DNA of 49,042 bases from Candidatus Zhuqueibacterota bacterium (lineage in GTDB: Bacteria; Zhuqueibacterota; Zhuqueibacteria; Residuimicrobiales; Krinioviventaceae), in contig JAFGJB010000059.1 in assembly GCA_016929295.1 (NCBI GenBank), forward strand, positions 1 to 49,042, given 5' to 3'. Below the pieces are notes generated by a model. It saw nothing but the letters and a program-made list of their open reading frames with translations. It did no database searches and was not told the origin of the DNA. The position numbers and the translations under genes were made by a program. This document shows, in pieces, positions 28,358 through 47,300 of this stretch. How positions within the stretch are numbered: the first letter of the stretch is position 1; every line of letters starts with the position of its first letter.

Positions 28358-31300
28358 ATGACAAGCCGGTTTTTTTTAACTTCATTTATTGTGCCCGTAT
28401 TCTTAATCTCGATTTTATCGCAAAGCATTTCGAACAACCTCTTTGCAAACGATACGCATCCTATAACAGAGGAAACTTTCATTTTTCAACTCCTTAAAAC
28501 TCTACAAAAAAATGATAGCTTAAAAATTCAGGAGCTCATCCAACAGCATCGCTATCCCACCCTCCATGCCGCAAACAAACTCCTGGACGGCTCAATCAAA
28601 GACTGGTTCGAAGAACGCCCAGATTCGGCAACTATAAAAATAGAGCAGGCTGAAAAGTTAGCCATCCTGTATCATCAGATCTATGAAACGCCTATCCTGC
28701 GTGAGCGTGTAGCACTTTATAAAAGCTGGTCCGCCATCGAAAAACGCGCCAAAGTGCGCGCCGATTCGCTGGTGAGAGTGGGGCTAGAGAACGGCAAAGC
28801 TGGCAAGCTCCAGGACGCCATCAATGTATGGGAAAAAACTCAAACGACATTCAAAGAGCTCGACCACGACCTCGCGGTCGCGCGCGGTTCGAAAGACATC
28901 GGTTACGCTTATCGACAATTAGGACAGTTTGATCCTGCCTTGCGCTATTTCGAAGAAACGAAATCAATCGCCCACGCCATCGACGAAAAAGCGCTCGAAG
29001 CGGATGCGATTCGCGAGATGGGCGTCGTTTCTTATATTAGGGGCGATGCAAGCACAGCGCTTAAGCGCTGGCAAGGGGCGATCCCCATGTTTCAACAAGC
29101 CGAAGATCGAAAAAGTGAAGGCATCGCCACCGCCCATATCGCTATCTATTATAAAAACAGGGGAGAAATCGACAAAGCGCTCGAGTACAACGAACGCGCC
29201 CTCACGTTGGCACGAGAAATCGGCAATGACTCGGAAGAGGCGAACATTCTCAATAATATTGGCAATATCTATATGGATTTTTTAGCCGACTATGACGTTG
29301 CGATCAGTAATTTTGAGCGCGCGGTCAAAATTAAAAAAGAACTCGGCGAGTTGCAGTATGTGGCTTACATCAACGGCAATATCGGCATTTGCAATAAGAA
29401 AAAGGGCGATTATGCGCAAGCATTCAAATATATTAACGAGGCATTGGATATCGCCGCACAGCTCAATCACAAACCTGTCAGAGGAGAGAATCTGAGTGAG
29501 CTGGCAACTTTATACACGGATGTCGGACAATATGGACAAGCAGCTCCCTATTACGAGCAGGCGTTAAAAATCCATCGAGAGACACAAAATGTCGGCGCCG
29601 AGCTGGAAACATTGATCAATTACGCTGTCAACTATGGACGATCGGGTGACTTTCACAAGGCGGATTCGTTGTATAGAGTCGCTCTGATCAAAGCGCGAAA
29701 GGCAAAACTCATCTCGTTCGAATGTTCACTATTGGCCAATCTGGGTTCACTTTGTTTTGATCAAGGTGAATACGGCGACGTCAAAGCCTATTGGGATGAA
29801 GCACTGGAAATATGTGCAGAGATTCATAATGTGCGACAGCAATCGCGTCTTTTCATCGATTACGGCTCACTCTTCCTGCAACAAAATGACCTCGTGCAAG
29901 CATGTAATCGATATCAGGAGGGACTTAACATTGCACGAAAAATTCAAGCGCCCGAGCTCATCTGGAAAGCCTACTTTGGCTTGGGACAGGTCTCCGAAAA
30001 ACAGAATAAACTGAATCAGGCAGTCGCTTATTATGATAGCTCGATCACGGAAATCGAATCCATGCGCATGCGAATCAAAGCCACGTCACTCAAAGAATCG
30101 TTCATGGAAGAAAAATATCGAGTGTACGAGGCCATCATTTTATTACTATTTAAATTAGGTGAGGAAGAAGAGGCTTTTGAATATCTGGAAAAAGCAAAGG
30201 CACAAAACCTGCTCGATATACTCTCTCGCGACAAAATAAAAATTGCCAGAGGCATACCACCCGAGCAGCTGCGTCGGAAGCAACTGCTTGAGTACAAGAT
30301 AACCAACATTCATAATGCCATCGCTGAGGCTTATTCCCAGAGTGGTGATAGTACGGCCATTGAGAAAAATGCGCAAAGCTTGAGAGACAGCCTGCAAGCC
30401 GTAAAAAATAAATATGAAAAATGGCTTGATCATATGGAGATCGAAAATCCAACTCTTTCACACTTGTCGGCAACATCACTGCATTTGCCGCAGGTGCAAA
30501 AAGCTCTTCCGGCAAGCACTGTTCTCATCGAATATTTCGTCGGAGAAGAACAAACATTCGTTTGGATTATTCGAACGAATGAATTCAAAACAGTCAGTAT
30601 GAATGTTAAAAAGCATGGACTTGACAGCCTAGTGACTTTGCTTTTAAATCAATTGAAAGATGCCAGAGATGGGAACATAAAAAATCTTGTTGATATTGTT
30701 TATGATTGTCAAGTGGCGCACGATTTATACATGCAAATCTTTGAACCTGTTGAGATTTTTCTCCGAAAAAGAGAACACGTCATCATCGTACCTGATGGCT
30801 TATTACATTACCTCCCCTTTGAGGGCCTGGTGACAAAGGTCAAAAAAAGGAGACATAGTCGTGATGACCTTAAGGTCTATCGCCAAACAAAATACCTCAT
30901 CCATGACTATAATATATCTTATACTCCATCTGCCACCATTCTATTCCTGCCACGCCAACAAGATGAACAGCTCGAATACAGTGGCCAATTGCTCGCATTT
31001 GGCAATCCAGATTTTAGCGGAGAACAAAAAGACGCCGACGTCATTGAAGCGCAATACAGTGCTCTCCGGTTACGTTCAGCTTTAAATTTTGCATATACAC
31101 CTTTGCCAAAATCCGAGCAAGAAGTAAAAAATATCTGCAATTTAATAAAACCTTCTGTTTATTACCTGGGACCTGAGGCGAAAGAGCAAAACTTTAAGCT
31201 ATACGCCAGCAATTATCCCAACATTCACATCTCGACCCATTGTGTTGTCGAAGAATCTCAACCTCTTTATTCAAAAATCGTTTTCGCACAAAAAAAAGAC

Positions 31301-31663
31301 TCACTGGATGATGGCTTGCTGCACGCTTTTGAAATCTTTAATCTGCAGCTCAATGCAGACATGGTCACTCTAAGCGCCTGCGAAACCGGCCTTGGCCGCT
31401 TTAATCGTGGAGAGGGACTGATAGGTTTGACGCGAGCATTTATGTGTGCCGGAACACGCACTCTTGTTGTGAGCTTATGGAGCATTGATGAATATACTGG
31501 CGAGTTAATGATTTCATTTTATGAAAATCTGAAAAAAGGCAAAAGAAAAGTCGAGGCGTTGAGAGATGCGAAACTTGAATATATCAGTGCACCGAAGGAT
31601 AAGACATTCCGCGCCCACCCCTTTTTATGGGCGCCATTTATTCTAATAGGAACTGCAGACTAA
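28358..31663 (+). CDS. TPR-CHAT protein: exported caspase-like protease of the island
   Basis: 1101 residues. A hydrophobic N-terminal segment (about 5-27) followed by SNNLFAN looks like a signal peptide, so the protein is predicted outside the cytoplasm. TPR units (A-x4-G-x2-Y-x3-A) fill about residues 135-560. Residues about 590-720 form a helical linker, and a CHAT (caspase/HetF-type) domain spans about 745-1101, with IVPDGLLHYLPFEGL near 810-823. The His of HISTHC is His961 and the Cys of LSACETGLG is Cys1008, a complete His/Cys pair; THC replaces the more common THG. AGGGAT lies 6 bases before ATG 28358, and a 178-base AT-rich gap separates it from the propeller gene. Substrate unknown. 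It converges on porU. Confidence 0.85.
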   Translation: MTSRFFLTSFIVPVFLISILSQSISNNLFANDTHPITEETFIFQLLKTLQKNDSLKIQELIQQHRYPTLHAANKLLDGSIKDWFEERPDSATIKIEQAEKLAILYHQIYETPILRERVALYKSWSAIEKRAKVRADSLVRVGLENGKAGKLQDAINVWEKTQTTFKELDHDLAVARGSKDIGYAYRQLGQFDPALRYFEETKSIAHAIDEKALEADAIREMGVVSYIRGDASTALKRWQGAIPMFQQAEDRKSEGIATAHIAIYYKNRGEIDKALEYNERALTLAREIGNDSEEANILNNIGNIYMDFLADYDVAISNFERAVKIKKELGELQYVAYINGNIGICNKKKGDYAQAFKYINEALDIAAQLNHKPVRGENLSELATLYTDVGQYGQAAPYYEQALKIHRETQNVGAELETLINYAVNYGRSGDFHKADSLYRVALIKARKAKLISFECSLLANLGSLCFDQGEYGDVKAYWDEALEICAEIHNVRQQSRLFIDYGSLFLQQNDLVQACNRYQEGLNIARKIQAPELIWKAYFGLGQVSEKQNKLNQAVAYYDSSITEIESMRMRIKATSLKESFMEEKYRVYEAIILLLFKLGEEEEAFEYLEKAKAQNLLDILSRDKIKIARGIPPEQLRRKQLLEYKITNIHNAIAEAYSQSGDSTAIEKNAQSLRDSLQAVKNKYEKWLDHMEIENPTLSHLSATSLHLPQVQKALPASTVLIEYFVGEEQTFVWIIRTNEFKTVSMNVKKHGLDSLVTLLLNQLKDARDGNIKNLVDIVYDCQVAHDLYMQIFEPVEIFLRKREHVIIVPDGLLHYLPFEGLVTKVKKRRHSRDDLKVYRQTKYLIHDYNISYTPSATILFLPRQQDEQLEYSGQLLAFGNPDFSGEQKDADVIEAQYSALRLRSALNFAYTPLPKSEQEVKNICNLIKPSVYYLGPEAKEQNFKLYASNYPNIHISTHCVVEESQPLYSKIVFAQKKDSLDDGLLHAFEIFNLQLNADMVTLSACETGLGRFNRGEGLIGLTRAFMCAGTRTLVVSLWSIDEYTGELMISFYENLKKGKRKVEALRDAKLEYISAPKDKTFRAHPFLWAPFILIGTAD

Positions 31664-31668
31664 AACAT

Positions 31669-34600
31669 TCAGCGCGCCACAATCAGCTTTTCAACAATCT
31701 CCGCCGTCAACGTCTCTTCCCCGCGCGACGATTTGACCGAAATCTTGTACAGGTAGACGCCATTGGCCACCGGATCACCCGCATCATCGCGGCCGTCCCA
31801 CTGCTCCGGGAAGACGTTGTAACCGACTCGCCCCGGCAGAGTCGCGAAGGATTTTATCAATCGTCCGGCCACGGTGAAAATCTTGATCGACACCTCCGCG
31901 TCCTGACTCAACTCATAACGGAACGTGCACTCTTCCAACATCGGATTGGGATAAGTGAGGGGATGCCGGATCTCCAATCTGGAATCATCGATGACGACAA
32001 AATGAGTCTCGACGATGGAAGAGTTGTTCGAGTTGTCCCAGGCCTTAACCTGAACCGTGTGTTCGCCGATCGGCAGGTCGAGAATCGTGTATGTGAGTGT
32101 GCCGTCGGTGTAGCTGCCTTCGTTGTAGGTGAAATATTCCGTGATATCGATAGAGTTGTTATAGTCTTGATCAATGGTGAGAAGAATCTGATGTCCGACA
32201 TCGCCTGCCGTATTGACGCCGCTCACCGAATCGGAGATGGCAAGATGTAATGTCGGCCGCGAAGAGACATAGTCACCCGGTATAAAATCTTCACTGCCAA
32301 AATAGACATTCATCCTGGGACCGTCCTTGTCGATGAGGTCGACCGCTGTGCCGCCAACCGCCAGGCCGCGTCGGTCGCCGGTGCCGGAGCTGGCATCATT
32401 CCAGAAATAGAGGCTGATCCGCCCGTCGCGCCCGCCGTAGGATATATCTTTTGGCACGATGAACTGCACATTGAACGCACCACTGACAATCGTGGCACCG
32501 CCGCGAAAGATGGTATTGCCGGTCGTATACAGACCGGTAATTGCACTGGTGCCGCCGGGATTATTATAGTTATACTTTTTGCGCGTATCCAGCGTGCGCA
32601 CCAGTATCTTACCTGTATAATCCTGTAAAAGCCGGCCCTGGTCTTCAACATGGCCGCGAATCATCATCCGACTGAGCGCCTGGATGCTGTCGGGTTGGAT
32701 GTCATCAATCACGGCCCGATAGCGGGGAGCGCATAGACGCATGGCCGGATCGCCAAAAAGATTGTATTTTTCATTATTGATGCTGTTGCCGCTGCCCGCC
32801 AGTTTGGCACGCATGACGGCATCTCCAAGACGCGCTGTCAGGCCGCTCCTGTCATAGGTGAGAAAAAGTTGGTCGTACAAGCTTTTATTGAATGCAGCAT
32901 TGTCGCTGGCGTACGCCAGACGGGCGGATGACACCATGGCAACCGCCCCTCGCGCCGAGGCATTGAGGATATCCTCGGCAAAACTCTGTGAGGTCGGTTG
33001 ATCCCAATGAGCAAATTCGCAGGTGGCCGCCACCCACAACGCCATGCGTCTGCCGTTCTGTATTTTTCCAAAATCACGCGTATTGAGCAGCACGCGTTCG
33101 TGCGCCCATAAATCGGGATTGCCATGGCCGATGTAATTAATCAGCAGCGAGCCGGCATTTATCTGTTCGAGCAAATCGAGCGTTGCAGCGGGCTTTTCGC
33201 GTCCGGTAATGCTGGCCGTGCGCACTTGTGGATAATTGATCAGATAAATTTTCTTCACATCCAAAAGCTCGGGGACATGCCGCTCGGCCAGGTCCTCGGC
33301 ATCTTCGGTGTGAATTTTCTCCCAGTCCGTGTCGTTAGTGTACTCGTCATCCGCGACGATGGTGATCGTTTTGAGCCATTCGCCGTACTCCGGATTGGTC
33401 TCGTACGCAATGATCTTGTCAACCGCATTTTGCGCTTCATCCACGGTCTGCGCCACCAGTCTGCCGATGGCTATCTGCATGCCGCTATTGTCGCCATTGA
33501 GATAGGTGTACCAGTCATCGGTGACGCGCGTGTTGGTCTCCGATTGGCCACCCGTTTCATAGGGTATGATTAGATTGGGGACATTGTTCTTGAGAATATT
33601 TTTATAGTCAAAATGACCATCGCCAAACAGCAACACATAGCCGGGATTTCCCCAGTTTTCTTTTGCATAGCCCAAAAAATTCCGTATCGCCGCCGGATCG
33701 TTCAGTCCCCAACCGAATTCATTAATCACATCAGAGATGTCAACCACCTCGGTATCAAGTTTTTCTTGCGGGCTCCAGTTTTCTCGCAGACTTGCCAGTT
33801 GTTCCGCCTGCTGGCGAAAGTCGTCATGGGTGATGATGATGTAATCGACATCCTTTGTCTGTCGCAAGCCGGTGATATTCTCGACGGAGATGGCAGCTTC
33901 TTCAATATTTTTGTATGCCGGCGAGGCAAGAGCGACATAGCGTCTGGCGTCGATTGTCGTGGCCTGATCGGCAAAATCGATGACGCCGTTGGCATAGTTT
34001 ACATCAGCGATCTCGCGAATATCTGATATATCTGTGACATCGAAGACGCGCACGTCGTTGTGCGAAAAACCGCTGATCTGATAACGAGCGATATCGTTTC
34101 TCAGTGGTGAATGAAATAAAAGCAGATCGTCGACGGCATTGAACCGGCGTTTGTATTCCAGTTCAATATAGTCGACGTATGAAAAAGACAAGTCCGAGGC
34201 GACATTATAGTTGATGGTGACTGTGTTGTCTCCTTGCATCAGAACGCCGTCCGCACTGAAGAGACGCTCGATGAGAGAATAGCTCGTCGAACCGCCATAT
34301 TGATCAAATTGACCGAGATTGTTGCCGTTGACATAGACGGAAAAATAGTGTTGGCCCGTGGTGAGCGAAGAAACAGCCGTCCGCACTGTTGTCTCCTCCG
34401 CAGCAACCGCGTCCGGCAAATGAAAGGTGACGGAATAGGCATTATCGTCTCGCCGCAACTCGCGCCCCAGCCAGGTGATGCCGGATTTATAGACATTATA
34501 CTTTTCCTCTTCGATCCAGGCCAGATCATTGAAAAAAGGCTCTGCTGTCCGTCCGGCTGTCGACTGCGAGGAAACCGGCCGAATGCGTTTGCCCGGCGCC

Positions 34601-35682
34601 CGATTGAACGTCAGCCAATAGACATTGTCATAACCGTAGGGATTGATATAATGTTTTAGCTGATTTCGCGTTGCGTCGAAATCGACGCCCTCGAGGGAAC
34701 GGCCATAAAAAAGAATATAGTCGGAATTGTGCAGCCTGCCATCGGACTCTCCGACCACCAGGATCGGATTTTCGATGAGCGTGTCATTCCTCGCAGCCTG
34801 ATCAAAACGCAACTCGCGGCCGCCGTTGTTATAAAGTTGAATGGTTGACGGATCGATCGATGAAAGCGAAATATTTCTTTTCGCCAGCGCCTGGCCCAGT
34901 GCAGCGCCACTTAATTTGTACATACCCTCCTTGCCGCCCGCGCCAGCGCCGGTTATTTTTATTTTGAGCCAGTTGTCACCTTGAAAAAAGCCCCTGTCGA
35001 TTTTTCGCAAGGCGGATCTGTCAGCCGGCCTGCGCCACACTTTCGCCTGTTCATCATTCAACAGCAGGCCGTCATAGAGTTCAGCTTCTCTATCCGGCAG
35101 CGTATTTGTCGCCGCCGTATTGCCGGCGTAATTGATTTGCAGAACGATCTTTATATATTTCCGCACGCGCTGTTGCAGCGGATGATATTGCAGCGGCTGC
35201 AGGTATATTTTCACAACGCGCTGCGAGCGAAAAGAGTGGGGCTCACTCACGCGCACGAGATTTTCGGGTTCGAATCGGTTCGTCTGGTAGCTTGTACTTT
35301 CCTGTTCAAAGAGATATTGGTAGCCGATTTCCTGGCGCACGATTATAGGAAGCGGGGCCAGGTCTATATTCTCATGCGTTTCGAACTCGGAATCAATCAC
35401 CTGCACGCGGGCATCACCGCCCTCGGGCACTGCGATGAGCACGGCCTTGACCGGAATCTGCGGTGCGCCAGGCTCGGCGTGCATCACTGCACCGTCAAAT
35501 GAGAACTCGTGATACAGATGAGATCCACTCTTGACGTCGCGAATCCGCCAGTTCATCGGCTCGAATTCAATGATCATCTGTGCCGCTGTTGAGGAAATCA
35601 CCCGAATGCCCTGATTCGCATACGCAAAAGCGGGCGCTAAAAATCCGAGCAAAACGAATGTATATAAAAGAGCTTTGCGCAT
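31669..35682 (-). CDS. porU: PorU-like type IX secretion sortase (gingipain-family cysteine peptidase)
   Basis: 1337 residues starting MRKALLYTFVLLGFLAPAFA, a clear signal peptide; the frame is open for 122 more codons upstream but that part is the shadow of the next gene. The peptidase C25 core holds a GHG with His853 and the catalytic Cys888 in AATCEF, plus LLFGDGHFDYKN near residue 700. An N-terminal pro-like beta region covers about 30-330. The protein ends in its own beta-sandwich resembling a type IX C-terminal domain (TYPNPMLEECTFRYEL). PorU removes the C-terminal signal from type IX substrates and links them to a surface glycan. AAGGGA precedes the start. The stop lies 5 bases from the CHAT gene's stop. 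Confidence 0.85.
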   Translation of the reverse strand: MRKALLYTFVLLGFLAPAFAYANQGIRVISSTAAQMIIEFEPMNWRIRDVKSGSHLYHEFSFDGAVMHAEPGAPQIPVKAVLIAVPEGGDARVQVIDSEFETHENIDLAPLPIIVRQEIGYQYLFEQESTSYQTNRFEPENLVRVSEPHSFRSQRVVKIYLQPLQYHPLQQRVRKYIKIVLQINYAGNTAATNTLPDREAELYDGLLLNDEQAKVWRRPADRSALRKIDRGFFQGDNWLKIKITGAGAGGKEGMYKLSGAALGQALAKRNISLSSIDPSTIQLYNNGGRELRFDQAARNDTLIENPILVVGESDGRLHNSDYILFYGRSLEGVDFDATRNQLKHYINPYGYDNVYWLTFNRAPGKRIRPVSSQSTAGRTAEPFFNDLAWIEEEKYNVYKSGITWLGRELRRDDNAYSVTFHLPDAVAAEETTVRTAVSSLTTGQHYFSVYVNGNNLGQFDQYGGSTSYSLIERLFSADGVLMQGDNTVTINYNVASDLSFSYVDYIELEYKRRFNAVDDLLLFHSPLRNDIARYQISGFSHNDVRVFDVTDISDIREIADVNYANGVIDFADQATTIDARRYVALASPAYKNIEEAAISVENITGLRQTKDVDYIIITHDDFRQQAEQLASLRENWSPQEKLDTEVVDISDVINEFGWGLNDPAAIRNFLGYAKENWGNPGYVLLFGDGHFDYKNILKNNVPNLIIPYETGGQSETNTRVTDDWYTYLNGDNSGMQIAIGRLVAQTVDEAQNAVDKIIAYETNPEYGEWLKTITIVADDEYTNDTDWEKIHTEDAEDLAERHVPELLDVKKIYLINYPQVRTASITGREKPAATLDLLEQINAGSLLINYIGHGNPDLWAHERVLLNTRDFGKIQNGRRMALWVAATCEFAHWDQPTSQSFAEDILNASARGAVAMVSSARLAYASDNAAFNKSLYDQLFLTYDRSGLTARLGDAVMRAKLAGSGNSINNEKYNLFGDPAMRLCAPRYRAVIDDIQPDSIQALSRMMIRGHVEDQGRLLQDYTGKILVRTLDTRKKYNYNNPGGTSAITGLYTTGNTIFRGGATIVSGAFNVQFIVPKDISYGGRDGRISLYFWNDASSGTGDRRGLAVGGTAVDLIDKDGPRMNVYFGSEDFIPGDYVSSRPTLHLAISDSVSGVNTAGDVGHQILLTIDQDYNNSIDITEYFTYNEGSYTDGTLTYTILDLPIGEHTVQVKAWDNSNNSSIVETHFVVIDDSRLEIRHPLTYPNPMLEECTFRYELSQDAEVSIKIFTVAGRLIKSFATLPGRVGYNVFPEQWDGRDDAGDPVANGVYLYKISVKSSRGEETLTAEIVEKLIVAR

Positions 35683-35699
35683 ATGAACTCGATCCCTTT

Positions 35700-36119
35700 C
35701 TAACGCTCCATTTCCGGAGCGTAATCGACAACGATCGCCGGGTTGAAATCGTCGGAAGAGCGACGTTTTTCGGTCAATTTTATGATAAAGAATGCGATTA
35801 CAAATGCCGAGAAGGCGCCAACAATGCCGACGCTTTCGGAAAAAGGCGGAACGAACCGTAAGGCCAGATAATAGCCGGCGAGCATGGCGACGAGCGGAAA
35901 GATGAACAGAATCATCGAACTTTTCACCACAAGTTTCGGTTCGATGCTCACATTCACCCGGTCTCCAACCGCAGCGCCGATAGAGTTCAGCGCTTCGAGC
36001 TGCATTTTGTTTTCGCCAAAAGCGTGGCAAAGATGACAGCCATCGCATTGATCACCGCGATGCAGTTGGATGATCGCTTTCTGTCCGTCAAGTGAAATAA
36101 TTGTTCCCGTCTCTAGCAT
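35700..36119 (-). CDS. RseC/MucC-family membrane protein
   Basis: 139 residues. The N-terminal cytoplasmic beta domain contains a Cys cluster, QCDGCHLCHAFG near residues 24-35, as in RseC/SoxR-reducing (Rsx-associated) proteins. Two membrane helices follow at about residues 70-88 and 95-112, then a short tail. RseC-type proteins are thought to influence the envelope stress sigma factor or electron transfer to SoxR; here no rpoE or rsx genes are adjacent. The gene is followed after 17 bases by porU, so the two form an operon. A weak TTTGGAAT precedes the ATG at 36119. Confidence 0.8.
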   Translation of the reverse strand: MLETGTIISLDGQKAIIQLHRGDQCDGCHLCHAFGENKMQLEALNSIGAAVGDRVNVSIEPKLVVKSSMILFIFPLVAMLAGYYLALRFVPPFSESVGIVGAFSAFVIAFFIIKLTEKRRSSDDFNPAIVVDYAPEMER

Positions 36120-40350: not shown

Positions 40351-43300
40351 TTATCCAAACAAAACATTGATATCATCGCGGGTGAGCGATTTAAAAAAGC
40401 TGCTATCCGTGGTGATCAGATCGGCGACGAGCTTTTTTTTGCGCGCCTGCAGCTCGACCATTTTTTCCTCGACAGAGTCTTTGGTGATGAGTCGATAGAC
40501 AAAGACTCTTTTATCCTGACCAATTCGATGGGCGCGATCGGTCGCCTGCACTTCCACGGCGGGGTTCCACCACGGATCATAGTGAATGACATAGTCCGCA
40601 GCGGTCAAATTCAGCCCCACGCCACCGGCTTTGAGACTGATGAGAAAAACGCGGATATTCTCATCAGCTTGAAAACGATCAACATGTTTCATACGATGGG
40701 TGGTATGGCCGTCCAGATACTCGTACAAAATGCCATTTGCATCGAGAAAAGCGCGAATGAGCCGCAGCATTTTCACGAATTGCGAAAATATGAGCACCTT
40801 GTGCTTTCCGGCGAGGATCTCTTCGACCAGTTCTTTCAGCGACTCGAATTTGCCCGAATCTTGCTCGACACTTTTGTCCACCAGGTACGGATGGCAGGCG
40901 AGCTGTCGCAGTTTGACCAATCCTTCGAGGACGCTCATGCGCGCCTTGTCGATGCCCACGCTGTCGATGGTGTCAAGTATTTTTGCCCGGTAATGATCCC
41001 GCCAATAAAGATAGAGCTTTTCCTGTTCGGCACTCATGGTACAATAAAAAGTCTGCTCAATCTTGGGCGGCAGCTCTTTAGCGACGCCTTCCTTGGTGCG
41101 GCGCAGGACGAACGGAAAGATCAGAGTGCGCAAGAACGCCGCAGCGCTTTCATCTTTTTTCTTTTCAATGGGATGGGTAAAAGCCCGCTTGAAATAGTAA
41201 AGCGATCCTAAAAGTCCCGGATTGAGGAAGGCGAACTGCGACCATAACTCGATGGTATTGTTCTCGACCGGAGTGCCGGTCAAGACGAGGCGAAAGCGCG
41301 AAGAAAGGAGTCGAGCGGCTTTTGCCGTTTGCGATGCCGGATTCTTTATTTTTTGCGACTCATCGAGAATGACATAATGAAAAGGGTATTTTTTGAGGAA
41401 GAGGATATCACGGCGCATCACGCCATAACTTGTCAGGATAACATCGTACTGATCAAACCGGCAGGCCTCTTTGTCGCGCTGCAAGCCGACGTGGATGAGC
41501 ACCTTCAAGTCAGGGGTGAATTTTTGCACCTCTTTTTCCCAGTTGTAAACAACGGAGGTGGGGCAGACGATGAGCGATGTCGCCTGGCGCACGCGTTCCT
41601 TATCAGACAAAAGTACGGCCAACGTCTGCAGCGTTTTTCCAAGTCCCATATCATCGGCCAGGCAGCCGCCAAAACCATATTCCTGCAAAAAGTAAAGCCA
41701 ATTGTAGCCGGCCTTTTGATACGGACGCAACTCTCCCTGCAATTTGGGTGAGAGCGGCTGGCTGGCGATGCCGGCAAAAGATCCCAGTTTTTCCACGCTG
41801 GTACGAAACTTTTCATCCGCCTGAAAATCATCGACGTGCGCAAAAAGTTTATCGATGAGCGTCGCATGGTACGCAGAAACTCTGACATGCTGCTCATCGG
41901 TCTCGGTGAAATTGAACAAATGCTGAAATTTGACAAACCACGACTCTGGCAGTTGCGCGATGCTTTTATCCGCCAGCTTGACGTAACGTAAATTTTGCCG
42001 GACAGCCTTTTTCAACTCTTTGAGAGAGAGGGGAACGCCGTCAATATCGATCTGCAGATTCAGATCAAACCAGTCAATTTTAGACGTGATGCCGATGCGG
42101 AGGTTTGGCTCACCCGTTCGCACCTTGAAACGTTGCAGCTGTTCTCGACCAATGACGTCAAAGCCATCCGCGGCAAGTTTCGGCAAATTGACAAACAGCC
42201 AATTCAATGCCTTTGCATCGATGATCCGCAGCCCACCCTTGGGATCATCCTTGAGGCCCGACTGCACGAGTTGCTCGCGAGCACGCAGCTCGTCTTCCCG
42301 GTCGCGAATAATCTGAGCGATCGTCGCGCCATCATTCTTAAAGTACAATTCCTGTGCCGCACAAAAATCCACTTCCAACGGGCCATAATCAAATTTAAGC
42401 GAGACCTCCAGGTGGCGCTCACTCTCCTGCAGCACAATCTTTTTACGCGTGATCTGGCTCAGCAGTGAAATATTGAGAGATCCTGGCAGCGGTACGGGAG
42501 TGGTCTTGATGAGCCGAGGGTAGACGCTCTCCAGAAAAAGCGGAAATTCTTTTTCCGGAATCGATAGCGTAATATCGGATTTTGTAAATGGCACGAGCAA
42601 ATTGGCATGATCCAGATTTTCGACCTTGATCAAGGTCCTGTTCATGAGCAACCAAATGGGTTGTTCAGTGAGCACCTTATATCGTGAATCCACCTTTTCT
42701 TCCCGTCCCTTGAACTCAATGTACGGGATCAAACAATAATCGCCGCTTTTTCGTTCAAAGGCAAAGCGGATGCGGGCGCCTTTTTTGGCAAATTTGAGGG
42801 GTGACAGCTGCTCTTCGAAGGGGCTCAGGTAGACAAGACTGTCGCACAAGAGGTCAAAAAGCGGCCCAAGGCGACTGCCATAGCGGTAGTGATAGACTTG
42901 CTCGTTAAAGGACAATCGACCAAAGTAGCGATTGTTATAAAAGGAGTTGCTCTGTTGTTCAATCTTTTGGATGTGCGAGACAACGATCGGATCATTCGGT
43001 GAAAAGACGAGGTCTTTGCCGCTCAGATCAAACTCACCAATATTGGAAAAACGACCCAGGAAACCGTTCTTTTTAATGTATGCCTTTTGCGGTGCAATGG
43101 ACCAGGACTCGTTGTTCAAATCGAGCAGATAGACGACGCGCCATTGCTGAATCTGTTTTTTCCAAACCTCGGACTCGACATCGATGACCTTTTCAAAGAA
43201 CCGTTTCCACTGCGGATGGCTGTGCGCGGACAGATCGTCGACGTTTTCATCATACCACTGTTTGGCCTGCAAAAGCGCCGCGACGACATGTTTGCAGGTG

Positions 43301-43509
43301 GCCCAATAGGGGCAGGTGCAGCTCGAATACAAACTGTCGCCGATCTCCTGGACGCTGACGCGGTAGGGCGCGGCGCCCTGCACTTCAGCCTCAAACTTGT
43401 CCGGTTCAATCGTGATCAGCTTGACCTTCTGGTCGTGAAAGCACTTTTCACCGCGGCGATAGATGTCGCTGCCGGAGAGATGTCGTATGCGTTCTTTGGT
43501 TAACTTCAT
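40351..43509 (-). CDS. SNF2-family DEAD/DEAH helicase with SWIM zinc finger
   Basis: 1052 residues. The N-terminus holds a SWIM zinc finger, CTCPYWATCKH near residues 64-74. A long middle part (about 100-560) is the region seen in bacterial SWIM-SNF2 proteins. The ATPase core begins near 600 with DDMGLGKT (motif I), LDESQ (motif II, in place of DEAH), LTGTPVEN (motif III) and ends with QATDRAHRIGQ (motif VI) near 1000. Such proteins translocate on duplex DNA or protein-DNA complexes; bacterial members often act in transcription recycling (RapA-like), repair or defence. ACAGGATAA precedes ATG 43509. It is divergent from the restriction-modification remnant, which may hint at a defence setting, but the SWIM-SNF2 family is also common in ordinary genomes. 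Confidence 0.87.
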   Translation of the reverse strand: MKLTKERIRHLSGSDIYRRGEKCFHDQKVKLITIEPDKFEAEVQGAAPYRVSVQEIGDSLYSSCTCPYWATCKHVVAALLQAKQWYDENVDDLSAHSHPQWKRFFEKVIDVESEVWKKQIQQWRVVYLLDLNNESWSIAPQKAYIKKNGFLGRFSNIGEFDLSGKDLVFSPNDPIVVSHIQKIEQQSNSFYNNRYFGRLSFNEQVYHYRYGSRLGPLFDLLCDSLVYLSPFEEQLSPLKFAKKGARIRFAFERKSGDYCLIPYIEFKGREEKVDSRYKVLTEQPIWLLMNRTLIKVENLDHANLLVPFTKSDITLSIPEKEFPLFLESVYPRLIKTTPVPLPGSLNISLLSQITRKKIVLQESERHLEVSLKFDYGPLEVDFCAAQELYFKNDGATIAQIIRDREDELRAREQLVQSGLKDDPKGGLRIIDAKALNWLFVNLPKLAADGFDVIGREQLQRFKVRTGEPNLRIGITSKIDWFDLNLQIDIDGVPLSLKELKKAVRQNLRYVKLADKSIAQLPESWFVKFQHLFNFTETDEQHVRVSAYHATLIDKLFAHVDDFQADEKFRTSVEKLGSFAGIASQPLSPKLQGELRPYQKAGYNWLYFLQEYGFGGCLADDMGLGKTLQTLAVLLSDKERVRQATSLIVCPTSVVYNWEKEVQKFTPDLKVLIHVGLQRDKEACRFDQYDVILTSYGVMRRDILFLKKYPFHYVILDESQKIKNPASQTAKAARLLSSRFRLVLTGTPVENNTIELWSQFAFLNPGLLGSLYYFKRAFTHPIEKKKDESAAAFLRTLIFPFVLRRTKEGVAKELPPKIEQTFYCTMSAEQEKLYLYWRDHYRAKILDTIDSVGIDKARMSVLEGLVKLRQLACHPYLVDKSVEQDSGKFESLKELVEEILAGKHKVLIFSQFVKMLRLIRAFLDANGILYEYLDGHTTHRMKHVDRFQADENIRVFLISLKAGGVGLNLTAADYVIHYDPWWNPAVEVQATDRAHRIGQDKRVFVYRLITKDSVEEKMVELQARKKKLVADLITTDSSFFKSLTRDDINVLFG

Positions 43510-44524: not shown

Positions 44525-44594
44525 AACCGCGCATTCAGTTCAGGCAAGCCTCCCGCCGCGCACACCGCTCCTACATTCGCATCGATCAGTGGGC

Positions 44595-47132
44595 TCACAT
44601 GAAAAACGCCTTCAGCTCGGCAAAGACCTCTTCGCGATTTCCCACGACGGTTCGGCAGGTCGGCAACGAGCTGATGAATTTTTTCCCATAACTTTTTTGA
44701 ATGACGCGGTTGTCAAAGATGATGACCGATCCGCGATCGGTCTTGCGGCGTATCAGGCGGCCAAATCCCTGTTTGAATTTCAGCACGGCGAGCGGCACGG
44801 CATAGTCCATGAAGGCGTTGCCGCCGTTTTTTTCGATGGCTTCGTAACGCGCTTCGATGATCGGCTCACTCGGGACCTTGAAGGGCAGCTTGGTGATGAT
44901 CACCGATTCAAGGGCGTCGCCCTCGACATCGACGCCCTCCCAGAAACTGTCGGTGCCGAACAATACCGAGGTCTTGTCGCGTTTGAATCGTTTCAGCAGC
45001 TCGTGTCGATTTTCAGCCCCCTGCTTGAGCGCGCTGATGCCGATCATGCGCAGGGACTCTTCGAGCTGACGATAGATCATGTTGAGCAAACCGTAAGAGG
45101 TGAACAGAATGAAGGCGCGTCCCTCGGAGATCGTCAGAGCCTTGAATATCGACTTGCCGAGTTCCTGCGCAAATGTCGAATGCCGCGGATCGGGCATATC
45201 CATGGGTATGGAGAGAAGAACCTGCCGCTCATAATCGAACGGCGCCGGCAGAATGACTTCTGTCCGCCGATCGGCTTGCACAGAATCGAGTCCAATGCGT
45301 TCAGCTAAAAAGTGAAAAGAGCTCTCAACCGTGAGCGTCGCCGAGGTCATCACCACAGTGTCAAACGCCTCGTAAACGGCATTTTTCATGGTGTTTTTGA
45401 TTTCCAGCGGCGACATTTGAAATCGGATGATGCTTTTGCCGCGCCAGCCGGGTCGCGCCTCGATCCAGCGAATATGATCTTCGTCCCAGGTGAAAATGAT
45501 CTCATGCAGCACGTCCCCCACGGCGGCGAGACGTTCAGCCTGCGCTTGCAGCTCGATGATCAGCGATTGCCAATTATCCTCGCTGCGTCCGCGACACTTT
45601 TTCGCCAGAGCGATGAGGTCATGCAAATCCGCAACAAAGAGCCTGATTGTCTGGATATAGTCCTTGAAATGAACGGTCAATCCCTCGCCATGAAAGAGAG
45701 CGTCAATGACGTGTGGCAAGAGGCGGATTTTAATTTCAGCGTCGACGGCGCCCGTATGATGATGTTGAAGCGCGCTGAATAGCAGGTCCATGATCGTATC
45801 GGTCTGCTGGACCAGTTGTTCCACAGCCGGCGCCAGTTGCAGTCGAATTTTGTCAATAATCCTTTCAACCAGATCGTCGGGGATATCTTGCCGCTGCTGC
45901 AGGACCTTGAAGCGGAGAGAGTGCAGAAAACCTTTTTCCACTGACTTTTGTTTACGATGCAGGCGATGCAGGATGCGAATAATGCCGGCGCGGGTGATTT
46001 GACTGCCAAAGTAATTCGTCGCCACGTTTTCTATGTGGTGCGCCTCATCGAAAATGATTTTTTGATAGGGCGGCAGGACGGCGGCATCCTGGAAACTGCC
46101 CGTCTGGTGGCGAATCGCCAAATCCGCGAACAGCAGGTGATGATTGACGACGAGAATCTGCGCTCTGCTCGCCTGTCGTCGGGCTCTGTTGACAAAACAG
46201 TCGCGAAAGTGTACACAGCGATTATGGGTGCAGGTGTCGCTTTCAGCGGCAATTTTTTCCCATACCGTCGATTTCGGCATGATGGCCAAATCGGCTTTGC
46301 TGCCGTCTTTTGTGAACTTGGCCCAGCCGATGAGCGCTTTCAATTCATCGCGCTCCTCTTCTTCGGTGTACAAATCAAATTCACCTTCGATATCATCGAC
46401 CTTGCGCAGACAGACATAGTTGGAGCGTCCCTTCACCAGCACGGCCTCGAATTTGACTGGCAGCACCTTTTGCAGAAAGGGAATGTCTTTTTTGACGAGT
46501 TGTTCCTGCAAATTGATCGTATTCGTGGAAATGACGATGCGTTGCCTGTTTTTCACCGACCAGTAAATAGAGGGCAACAAATAGGCCATGGTTTTGCCCG
46601 TGCCGGTGCCGGCTTCGATGGTCGAAATCTTGTTGTCGTTGAACGCCTCTGCCACATAGTCGATCATTTCAATCTGTTGCGGACGATCTTCATAGCCGGA
46701 GAGCTTGCGCGAGACCGGCCCGCCGGGCAGCAGCAGCTTTTTAATGTCGTCGGTTTGCAGGGCTTGAATGTCATTTTTCGCATAGGGCTCTACGACAGCA
46801 TAAATATCATCAACATTGTTATTGACAATGAAAAATGCGACGCTGAATTTTTCGAGCATACCGGCGATCTTGAGATCGGCAGCGGACGGTTTCAGAACGG
46901 CGGAGGGATGGTTATGAATCACCACATCGGCTTCTTGCGCGATTTTCATGATGGCGGGCGCGGCGCTCTCATTGCCGCGCGCCACAACCTGCACGTCGTG
47001 CACAAGCATATCCTCATCGATCCAGCCGACGAAAAAAACCTCGTTGCCGTACGCCTCTGCAATGGCGGCGCGCATGCTGTCACATATGTCGGCCGTGATG
47101 TATTTGGCGATATCTGCCATGTCAACGTTCAC
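44595..47132 (-). CDS. DinG/XPD-family helicase fused to an N-terminal JAMM/JAB domain
   Basis: 845 residues. The first 125 residues are a JAMM metalloprotease-like (RadC/JAB) domain with Glu31, HNHP (His73, His75), Ser83 and Asp86, the full set of metal-site residues. After a linker the DinG/XPD helicase begins with EAGTGTGKT (Walker A) near residue 170. It has four cysteines (YVCLRK, then TCTHNRCVHFRDC) fitting the 4Fe-4S cluster, FDEAHH (motif II) near 365, TSATL near 615, and FGRLIRR (motif VI) near 790. DinG-type proteins unwind DNA 5' to 3' and resolve R-loops or act in repair. The start may be GTG 47132 or ATG 47120. Close to, but not co-oriented with, the restriction remnant. Confidence 0.87.
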   Translation of the reverse strand: MNVDMADIAKYITADICDSMRAAIAEAYGNEVFFVGWIDEDMLVHDVQVVARGNESAAPAIMKIAQEADVVIHNHPSAVLKPSAADLKIAGMLEKFSVAFFIVNNNVDDIYAVVEPYAKNDIQALQTDDIKKLLLPGGPVSRKLSGYEDRPQQIEMIDYVAEAFNDNKISTIEAGTGTGKTMAYLLPSIYWSVKNRQRIVISTNTINLQEQLVKKDIPFLQKVLPVKFEAVLVKGRSNYVCLRKVDDIEGEFDLYTEEEERDELKALIGWAKFTKDGSKADLAIMPKSTVWEKIAAESDTCTHNRCVHFRDCFVNRARRQASRAQILVVNHHLLFADLAIRHQTGSFQDAAVLPPYQKIIFDEAHHIENVATNYFGSQITRAGIIRILHRLHRKQKSVEKGFLHSLRFKVLQQRQDIPDDLVERIIDKIRLQLAPAVEQLVQQTDTIMDLLFSALQHHHTGAVDAEIKIRLLPHVIDALFHGEGLTVHFKDYIQTIRLFVADLHDLIALAKKCRGRSEDNWQSLIIELQAQAERLAAVGDVLHEIIFTWDEDHIRWIEARPGWRGKSIIRFQMSPLEIKNTMKNAVYEAFDTVVMTSATLTVESSFHFLAERIGLDSVQADRRTEVILPAPFDYERQVLLSIPMDMPDPRHSTFAQELGKSIFKALTISEGRAFILFTSYGLLNMIYRQLEESLRMIGISALKQGAENRHELLKRFKRDKTSVLFGTDSFWEGVDVEGDALESVIITKLPFKVPSEPIIEARYEAIEKNGGNAFMDYAVPLAVLKFKQGFGRLIRRKTDRGSVIIFDNRVIQKSYGKKFISSLPTCRTVVGNREEVFAELKAFFM

Positions 47133-47300
47133 ACTTTAGCACCGAAACCTCGATCTCGTAAGGCGATAAAATAGTCTTTTTTCTTCTACAAACAAAACAA
47201 AATGACAGGGGCGATGCAGTGGTGGGCGCTTTAATTAGAATTTGCGTCTCTTTTTTAAAATATCTACTTTCTATCCGCTGACAAAATATGGAGTGAAAAT

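Follow-up and report, generated by a model that had tools for sequence, protein, structure and literature searches.

The window, by which we mean the whole 49,042-nucleotide stretch of DNA analysed here, carries on its minus strand a gene that joins a RadC-type JAB/JAMM domain to an Fe-S helicase of the YoaA/DinG type. The earlier note had placed this fusion at 44595-47132, and the open reading frame, of 845 residues on the minus strand, lies exactly there. The features discussed below are listed here, with invariance referring to 70 aligned rows (the window protein and 69 other fusions, two rows repeating genomes):

44595..47132, minus strand: RadC-like DinG gene, JAB/JAMM domain plus YoaA/DinG-type Fe-S helicase, 845 residues
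46785..47102, minus strand: RadC-type JAB/JAMM domain, residues about 11-116 (Pfam PF04002, AlphaFold2 model, Foldseek match 2qlc)
47040..47042, minus strand: codon of Glu31, the JAMM general acid-base residue, invariant in 70/70 rows
46875..46916, minus strand: HNHPSAVLKPSAAD, with His73, His75, Ser83 and Asp86 of the JAMM site, invariant in 70/70 rows
44598..46718, minus strand: YoaA/DinG-type SF2 helicase, residues 139-845 (NCBIfam YoaA and DinG models)
46590..46610, minus strand: Walker A motif GTGTGKT, residues 175-181
46038..46049, minus strand: Walker B motif DEAH, residues 362-365
46197..46412, minus strand: stretch containing C241, C301, C306 and C312, the four candidate Fe-S cysteines

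Ahead of the GTG start codon come, in frame, a TAA stop and then a single Ser codon; translation could equally well begin at an ATG four codons in (47120). Since the fusion is found near full length in related genomes as well, it is neither a product of chance nor an assembly artefact. Two long open frames lie antisense to it (44589-45308, plus strand, 239 residues; 45948-47174, plus strand, 408 residues) and are probably a by-product of codon composition. Downstream is a SWIM-SNF2 helicase gene (40351-43509, minus strand), which was not a recurrent neighbour in other loci. Elsewhere in the window are a gingipain-like C25 peptidase of 1459 residues with a propeptide and an FlgD-Ig-like C-terminal domain (31669-36048, minus strand) and a TPR protein of 1101 residues ending in a CHAT peptidase domain (28358-31663, plus strand). 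An Rfam scan of the window gave no match.

The helicase motifs and Fe-S cysteines reported in the earlier note are all present: in addition to GTGTGKT and DEAH, the protein has SATL at 597 and GRLIR at 791, and the candidate cysteines stand at 241, 301, 306 and 312. YoaA was the best-scoring NCBIfam model for this half, at 591.7 bits and so short of the 680 cut-off, with the DinG models next, and Pfam Helicase_C_2 matched with 165 bits. The model of the window protein ends in a helix at 833-844.

The earlier note had allowed that the fusion might prove to be a long-known architecture, and this is what we found, so that a novel architecture can be discounted: RadC fusions to DinG/RAD3-like helicases are mentioned in a passage of PMC5512222 (2017), and the accessible text of a recent review (PMC11981726, Cheng 2025) treats such proteins as a subgroup under the name RadC-like DinG, calls it unstudied and reports no experiments. 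According to that text, whose model protein is from Desulfuromonas soudanensis, RadC-like DinGs have an extra C-terminal helix (alpha7) like that of YoaA and occur in genomes without HolC. The window protein shares with them an N-terminal RadC-like domain before the DinG motor, conserved E/H/H/D residues, a YoaA-like helicase with ATP-site motifs and Fe-S cysteines, and a genome lacking HolC, and is almost certainly a member of the subgroup. Compared with the accessible text of the review, our data add the adjacency of an MBL-fold gene, the occurrence of E1-free genomes, the invariance of the active site over many genomes and a split between classes; a word search of that text found no mention of an MBL gene or of KSB1, and a literature search for MBL/DinG pairing found no paper.

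Fold and active site of the JAB domain

Several lines of evidence assign the N-terminal domain to the RadC-type JAB fold. Residues 15-95 matched the Pfam RadC family (PF04002) with 24.4 bits against a gathering cut-off of 22.1, and all 60 aligned N-terminal domains matched it when scanned as single domains (E 0.01). The earlier note's claim of a JAMM fold was borne out by structure prediction: an AlphaFold2 model built from a 60-sequence alignment of the domain had a mean pLDDT of 90.4 and matched JAB/MPN folds, with the RadC crystal structure 2qlc as the top Foldseek match (E 1e-5) and JAMM proteases next. VIA-align Z values were 9.5 for Rpn11, 9.1 for PfJAMM1 and 8.6 for 2qlc, the order among the three not being clear-cut, and a profile search against solved sequences likewise put 2qlc on top (E 2.7e-7).

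Stand-alone RadC has an N-terminal helix-hairpin-helix domain ahead of its JAB domain. Pfam found no other N-terminal domain in the fusion, and the JAB domain starts near residue 11; we therefore regard it as a RadC-type domain and not as a RadC protein. The two share the HNHPS...PSxxD signature (PF04002; 2qlc), while their RadC profile scores in the window's genome, which also encodes a stand-alone RadC (G000:C64), were 150.7 bits for that protein and 27.8 for the fusion.

All five JAMM positions named in the earlier note (Glu31, His73, His75, Ser83 and Asp86) are exactly where it had put them, and all are invariant in the 70 fusion rows, as are Gly53, Asn74, Pro76, Pro82 and Ile102; with Arg52 kept in 66 of 70 rows, the Arg52-Gly53 pair is nearly invariant. 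The five residues were also invariant among the 37 class rows that came from a whole-protein search and so carry no motif bias, in which 15 of 106 JAB positions were invariant. They are more constant than the Fe-S cysteines of the same 70 rows, in which Cys was found at 241 in 65 and at 301 in 63. A Ser or Thr stands in for one of the four cysteines in fusions L030, L032, L125, L127-L130, L050, L054, L059, L060 and L065.

The domain agrees with JAMM/MPN+ metalloproteases (AfJAMM, PfJAMM1, Rpn11) in fold and at each of the five catalytic positions but departs from the strict motif E-Xn-H-S/T-H-X7-S-X2-D in having Asn74 where Ser or Thr lies between the two histidines, and it lacks a known ubiquitin-like substrate. 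Asn occurs at this position in distant JAMM relatives, where it has the same bracing role, and the equivalents of the other residues bind zinc, carry out acid-base catalysis and stabilise the intermediate, the Ser of JAMM peptidases stabilising the tetrahedral one (accessible text of PMC300881). Given these assigned roles and the invariance of the residues, we infer that the JAB domain works as a single-zinc hydrolase; its site is intact and under strong selection.

Distribution and genomic neighbours of the fusion

We searched 82 genomes of the window's phylum, 63 from the window's class (KSB1 relatives) and 19 from other classes. A fusion match was found in 59 of the 63 class genomes, one apiece; 57 extend into the JAB domain and the other two, in G006 and G056, end at contig edges. 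The fusion is thus a single-copy core gene of the class. DinG matches were present in 17 of the 19 genomes from other classes, and none extended into the JAB site. Among 12 sister-class N-termini inspected, 10 resemble DnaQ-type exonucleases and two (L115, L117) seem degenerate; Pfam, run on eight of them, identified RNase_T in six and nothing in L115 and L117. This is the ExoDinG layout (DnaQ exonuclease-DinG), which places an enzyme domain before the DinG motor as the fusion does, but with a DEDDh exonuclease instead of JAB and a motor that falls on a different branch of the DinG tree. RNase_T had no Pfam match in the window protein, which accordingly lacks the N-terminal exonuclease of ExoDinG.

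A quick tree of 102 helicase halves, made with part of the available fusions and after five rows were dropped for short coverage, grouped the exonuclease-type DinGs on a single starred branch (97); most JAB fusions lay elsewhere, in a region shared with short DinGs. The JAB label required four changes on this tree, against a mean of 33.9 when shuffled, although JAB rows form no clean clade: L077 and L078, both without JAB, fall among them, and some deep forks are open. Since the helicase halves sit in different branches, one DinG lineage stands where the sister classes have another, and we rejected a local swap of JAB and exonuclease domains.

The nearest named records were MAGs of candidate division KSB1 (59% and 57% identical across the N-terminal query). 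A genome-collection scan outside the phylum search retained 80 loci, 33 of them fusions, two being KSB1 ones (L033 and L034, by coordinates genomes G013 and G012, both in the window's order). The others came from Geobacter relatives and other deltaproteobacteria, Gemmatimonadota and Sumerlaeota, from single MAGs labelled Spirochaeta, Dadabacteria, Halanaerobiaceae, Fusobacteria and Acidimicrobiia, and from two labelled only 'bacterium'; such taxon labels can be wrong, and the scan favours intact sites because its pattern contained the HNH motif. Viral contigs, scanned by pattern, yielded 28 loci and no full fusion: 27 matched only from query residue 100 onward and one (L174) weakly from 52 (24% identity). 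We set aside a phage or mobile origin on this result, while noting that absence from viral contigs is no proof because the scan relies on two conserved peptides.

Across 48 loci (the window, 16 relatives and 31 others), an MBL-fold gene alone recurs broadly beside the fusion in the window's class; Gemmatimonadota fusion loci have their own local neighbours in common. The MBL protein has about 320 residues, its PDB relatives are CPSF73, SNM1A, Apollo and Artemis, and the metal motif SHxHxDH is present in 14 of 14 copies inspected. Five of five copies scanned matched TIGR04122 (ligase-associated DNA damage response exonuclease) with 183.7-218.4 bits, below the equivalog cut-off of 325. The gene occurs in 51 of 63 class genomes versus 1 of 19 sister-class genomes. 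It is found in 49 of the 59 fusion genomes and lies immediately upstream of the fusion on the same strand in 36 (including G003 and G009), at gaps of -4 to 541 bases; in the remainder it is on the same contig but farther away (five) or on another contig (eight, the window's genome among them). Of the class's 13 families, 11 (f1-f10 and f12) are represented among these 36 genomes, and the adjacent pair is an apparent operon. The copy in the window's genome (G000:C143:617-1564, minus strand) is unlinked to the fusion and keeps a pdxT-like neighbour. As a general feature of the subgroup the partner was rejected, with a distant match in just two of 27 fusion genomes outside the class.

Two smaller points concern these genes. 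Single internal stop codons, from assembly error or decay, interrupt the MBL copies G005:C22:41747-42688, G037:C272:2226-3158 and G109:C358:2509-3447. Five LexA-like spacings gave no match in the 250 bases ahead of 17 genes or operons; the class's own box may differ, so this says little on SOS control.

Possible roles of the JAB domain

RadC-type JAB domains are widespread in bacteria, and here one is joined to a motor whose type is known, with its active site always kept. We tentatively propose, with a probability of roughly 40%, that the domain hydrolyses proteins met by the helicase. Judging from its family, the helicase would load on single-stranded DNA and run into obstacles; the JAB domain may then hydrolyse a protein unfolded by the motor, for example one trapped covalently or bound tightly at stalled forks; and the MBL-fold nuclease encoded upstream, in what would be the ancestral arrangement of the class, might trim the DNA. 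DinG-type helicases move on single strands, and FANCJ is an XPD-family Fe-S helicase from the same wider family as DinG. The model for this scheme is eukaryotic DNA-protein crosslink repair, in which the Fe-S helicase FANCJ, working with a metalloprotease, translocates into the crosslinked protein and unfolds it, whereupon SPRTN cuts (accessible text of PMC12279946). FANCJ and SPRTN differ from the fusion in being separate proteins, so the comparison is one of analogy; it is the feeding of substrates from helicase to protease that the fusion might reproduce. The protease fold of SPRTN is unrelated to JAMM.

Protein hydrolysis is consistent with the invariance of all five JAMM residues, the Ser of JAMM peptidases included, with the structural neighbours of the JAB domain, which are RadC and JAMM peptidases, and with the contrast between classes: most sister-class DinGs carry a nuclease in cis, and the MBL gene is missing from 18 of the 19 genomes of those classes. 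That an MBL gene stands beside JAB-DinG and is missing where an exonuclease is present in cis argues mildly against a nuclease role for JAB, as a single phylogenetic comparison. On the other side, the MBL partner lies apart from the fusion in the window's genome and is missing or only distantly matched in the 27 fusion genomes outside the class, and accessible literature on RadC-family JAB domains yielded no demonstrated substrate.

The main rival, which we consider possible but somewhat doubtful, holds that JAB is a nuclease or nucleic-acid-processing enzyme in place of ExoDinG's DnaQ, cutting the strand that the helicase unwinds. This reading of RadC-type JAB domains reportedly goes back to Iyer, Aravind and colleagues, in a source said to date from 2011. 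In the accessible text of PMC5512222 and PMC3482391, JAB domains of the RadC type are said to have no groove that would take a ubiquitin tail, and a nuclease is proposed because JAB occupies the position that nucleases have in other helicases. This positional argument agrees with the exonuclease-DinG of the sister classes, the fusion and the DnaQ-exonuclease DinG belonging to different classes of the phylum, and Arg52-Gly53 could equally well bind phosphate. Yet the helicase halves come from different DinG branches, so that these are separate DinG lineages and not the outcome of a local domain swap; the peptidase Ser83 is invariant; and since 36 of 59 genomes already have a gene for an MBL nuclease-type enzyme beside the fusion, JAB need not be the nuclease. 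We therefore prefer protein hydrolysis.

It is improbable that JAB is a non-catalytic docking module, for example one that, in the absence of HolC, brings the helicase to the replisome. Many MPN domains do act as scaffolds, and such domains typically lose their JAMM residues, which were lost in none of the 70 rows. HolC scored above cut-off in none of the 82 phylum genomes, as a docking role might predict, with one sub-threshold match in G006 and positive E. coli and Caulobacter controls.

Least probable is an isopeptidase stripping a ubiquitin-like modifier from DNA-bound proteins: the JAMM fold and site are common to deubiquitinases, but no ThiF/E1-type match (PF00899, E 1e-5) was obtained in the window's genome or in 25 more of the 59 fusion genomes, 20 of these 26 having a completeness of 90% or more and a contamination of 5% or less (one to four candidates unscored in G003, G020 and G046), which makes an E1-attached modifier unlikely as common substrate, and no modifier-like recurrent neighbour stood out in the 48 loci (compared as similarity clusters, few scanned for families). 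The same counts tell against the earlier note's suggestion that a modifier is cleaved.

A narrower and distinctly less likely version of protein hydrolysis is that RadC-like DinG is a one-protein bacterial FANCJ plus SPRTN, which would unfold DNA-crosslinked proteins and feed them to its own JAMM protease, here alongside a co-transcribed SNM1-like nuclease. Among the papers listed by a literature search, none treats RadC as a crosslink protease in its title or abstract opening. Bacteria would then have a dedicated DNA-protein crosslink protease, and RadC-type JAB domains a first substrate class. The fusion turns the role of these domains into a direct biochemical question: is protein or DNA cut while the helicase runs?

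The sister-class proteins L115 and L117 (genomes G100 and G101), whose N-terminal exonuclease region has no Pfam exonuclease family match, resemble the pExoDinG subgroup. Unlike that region, the JAB domain shows no decay in the fusions examined.
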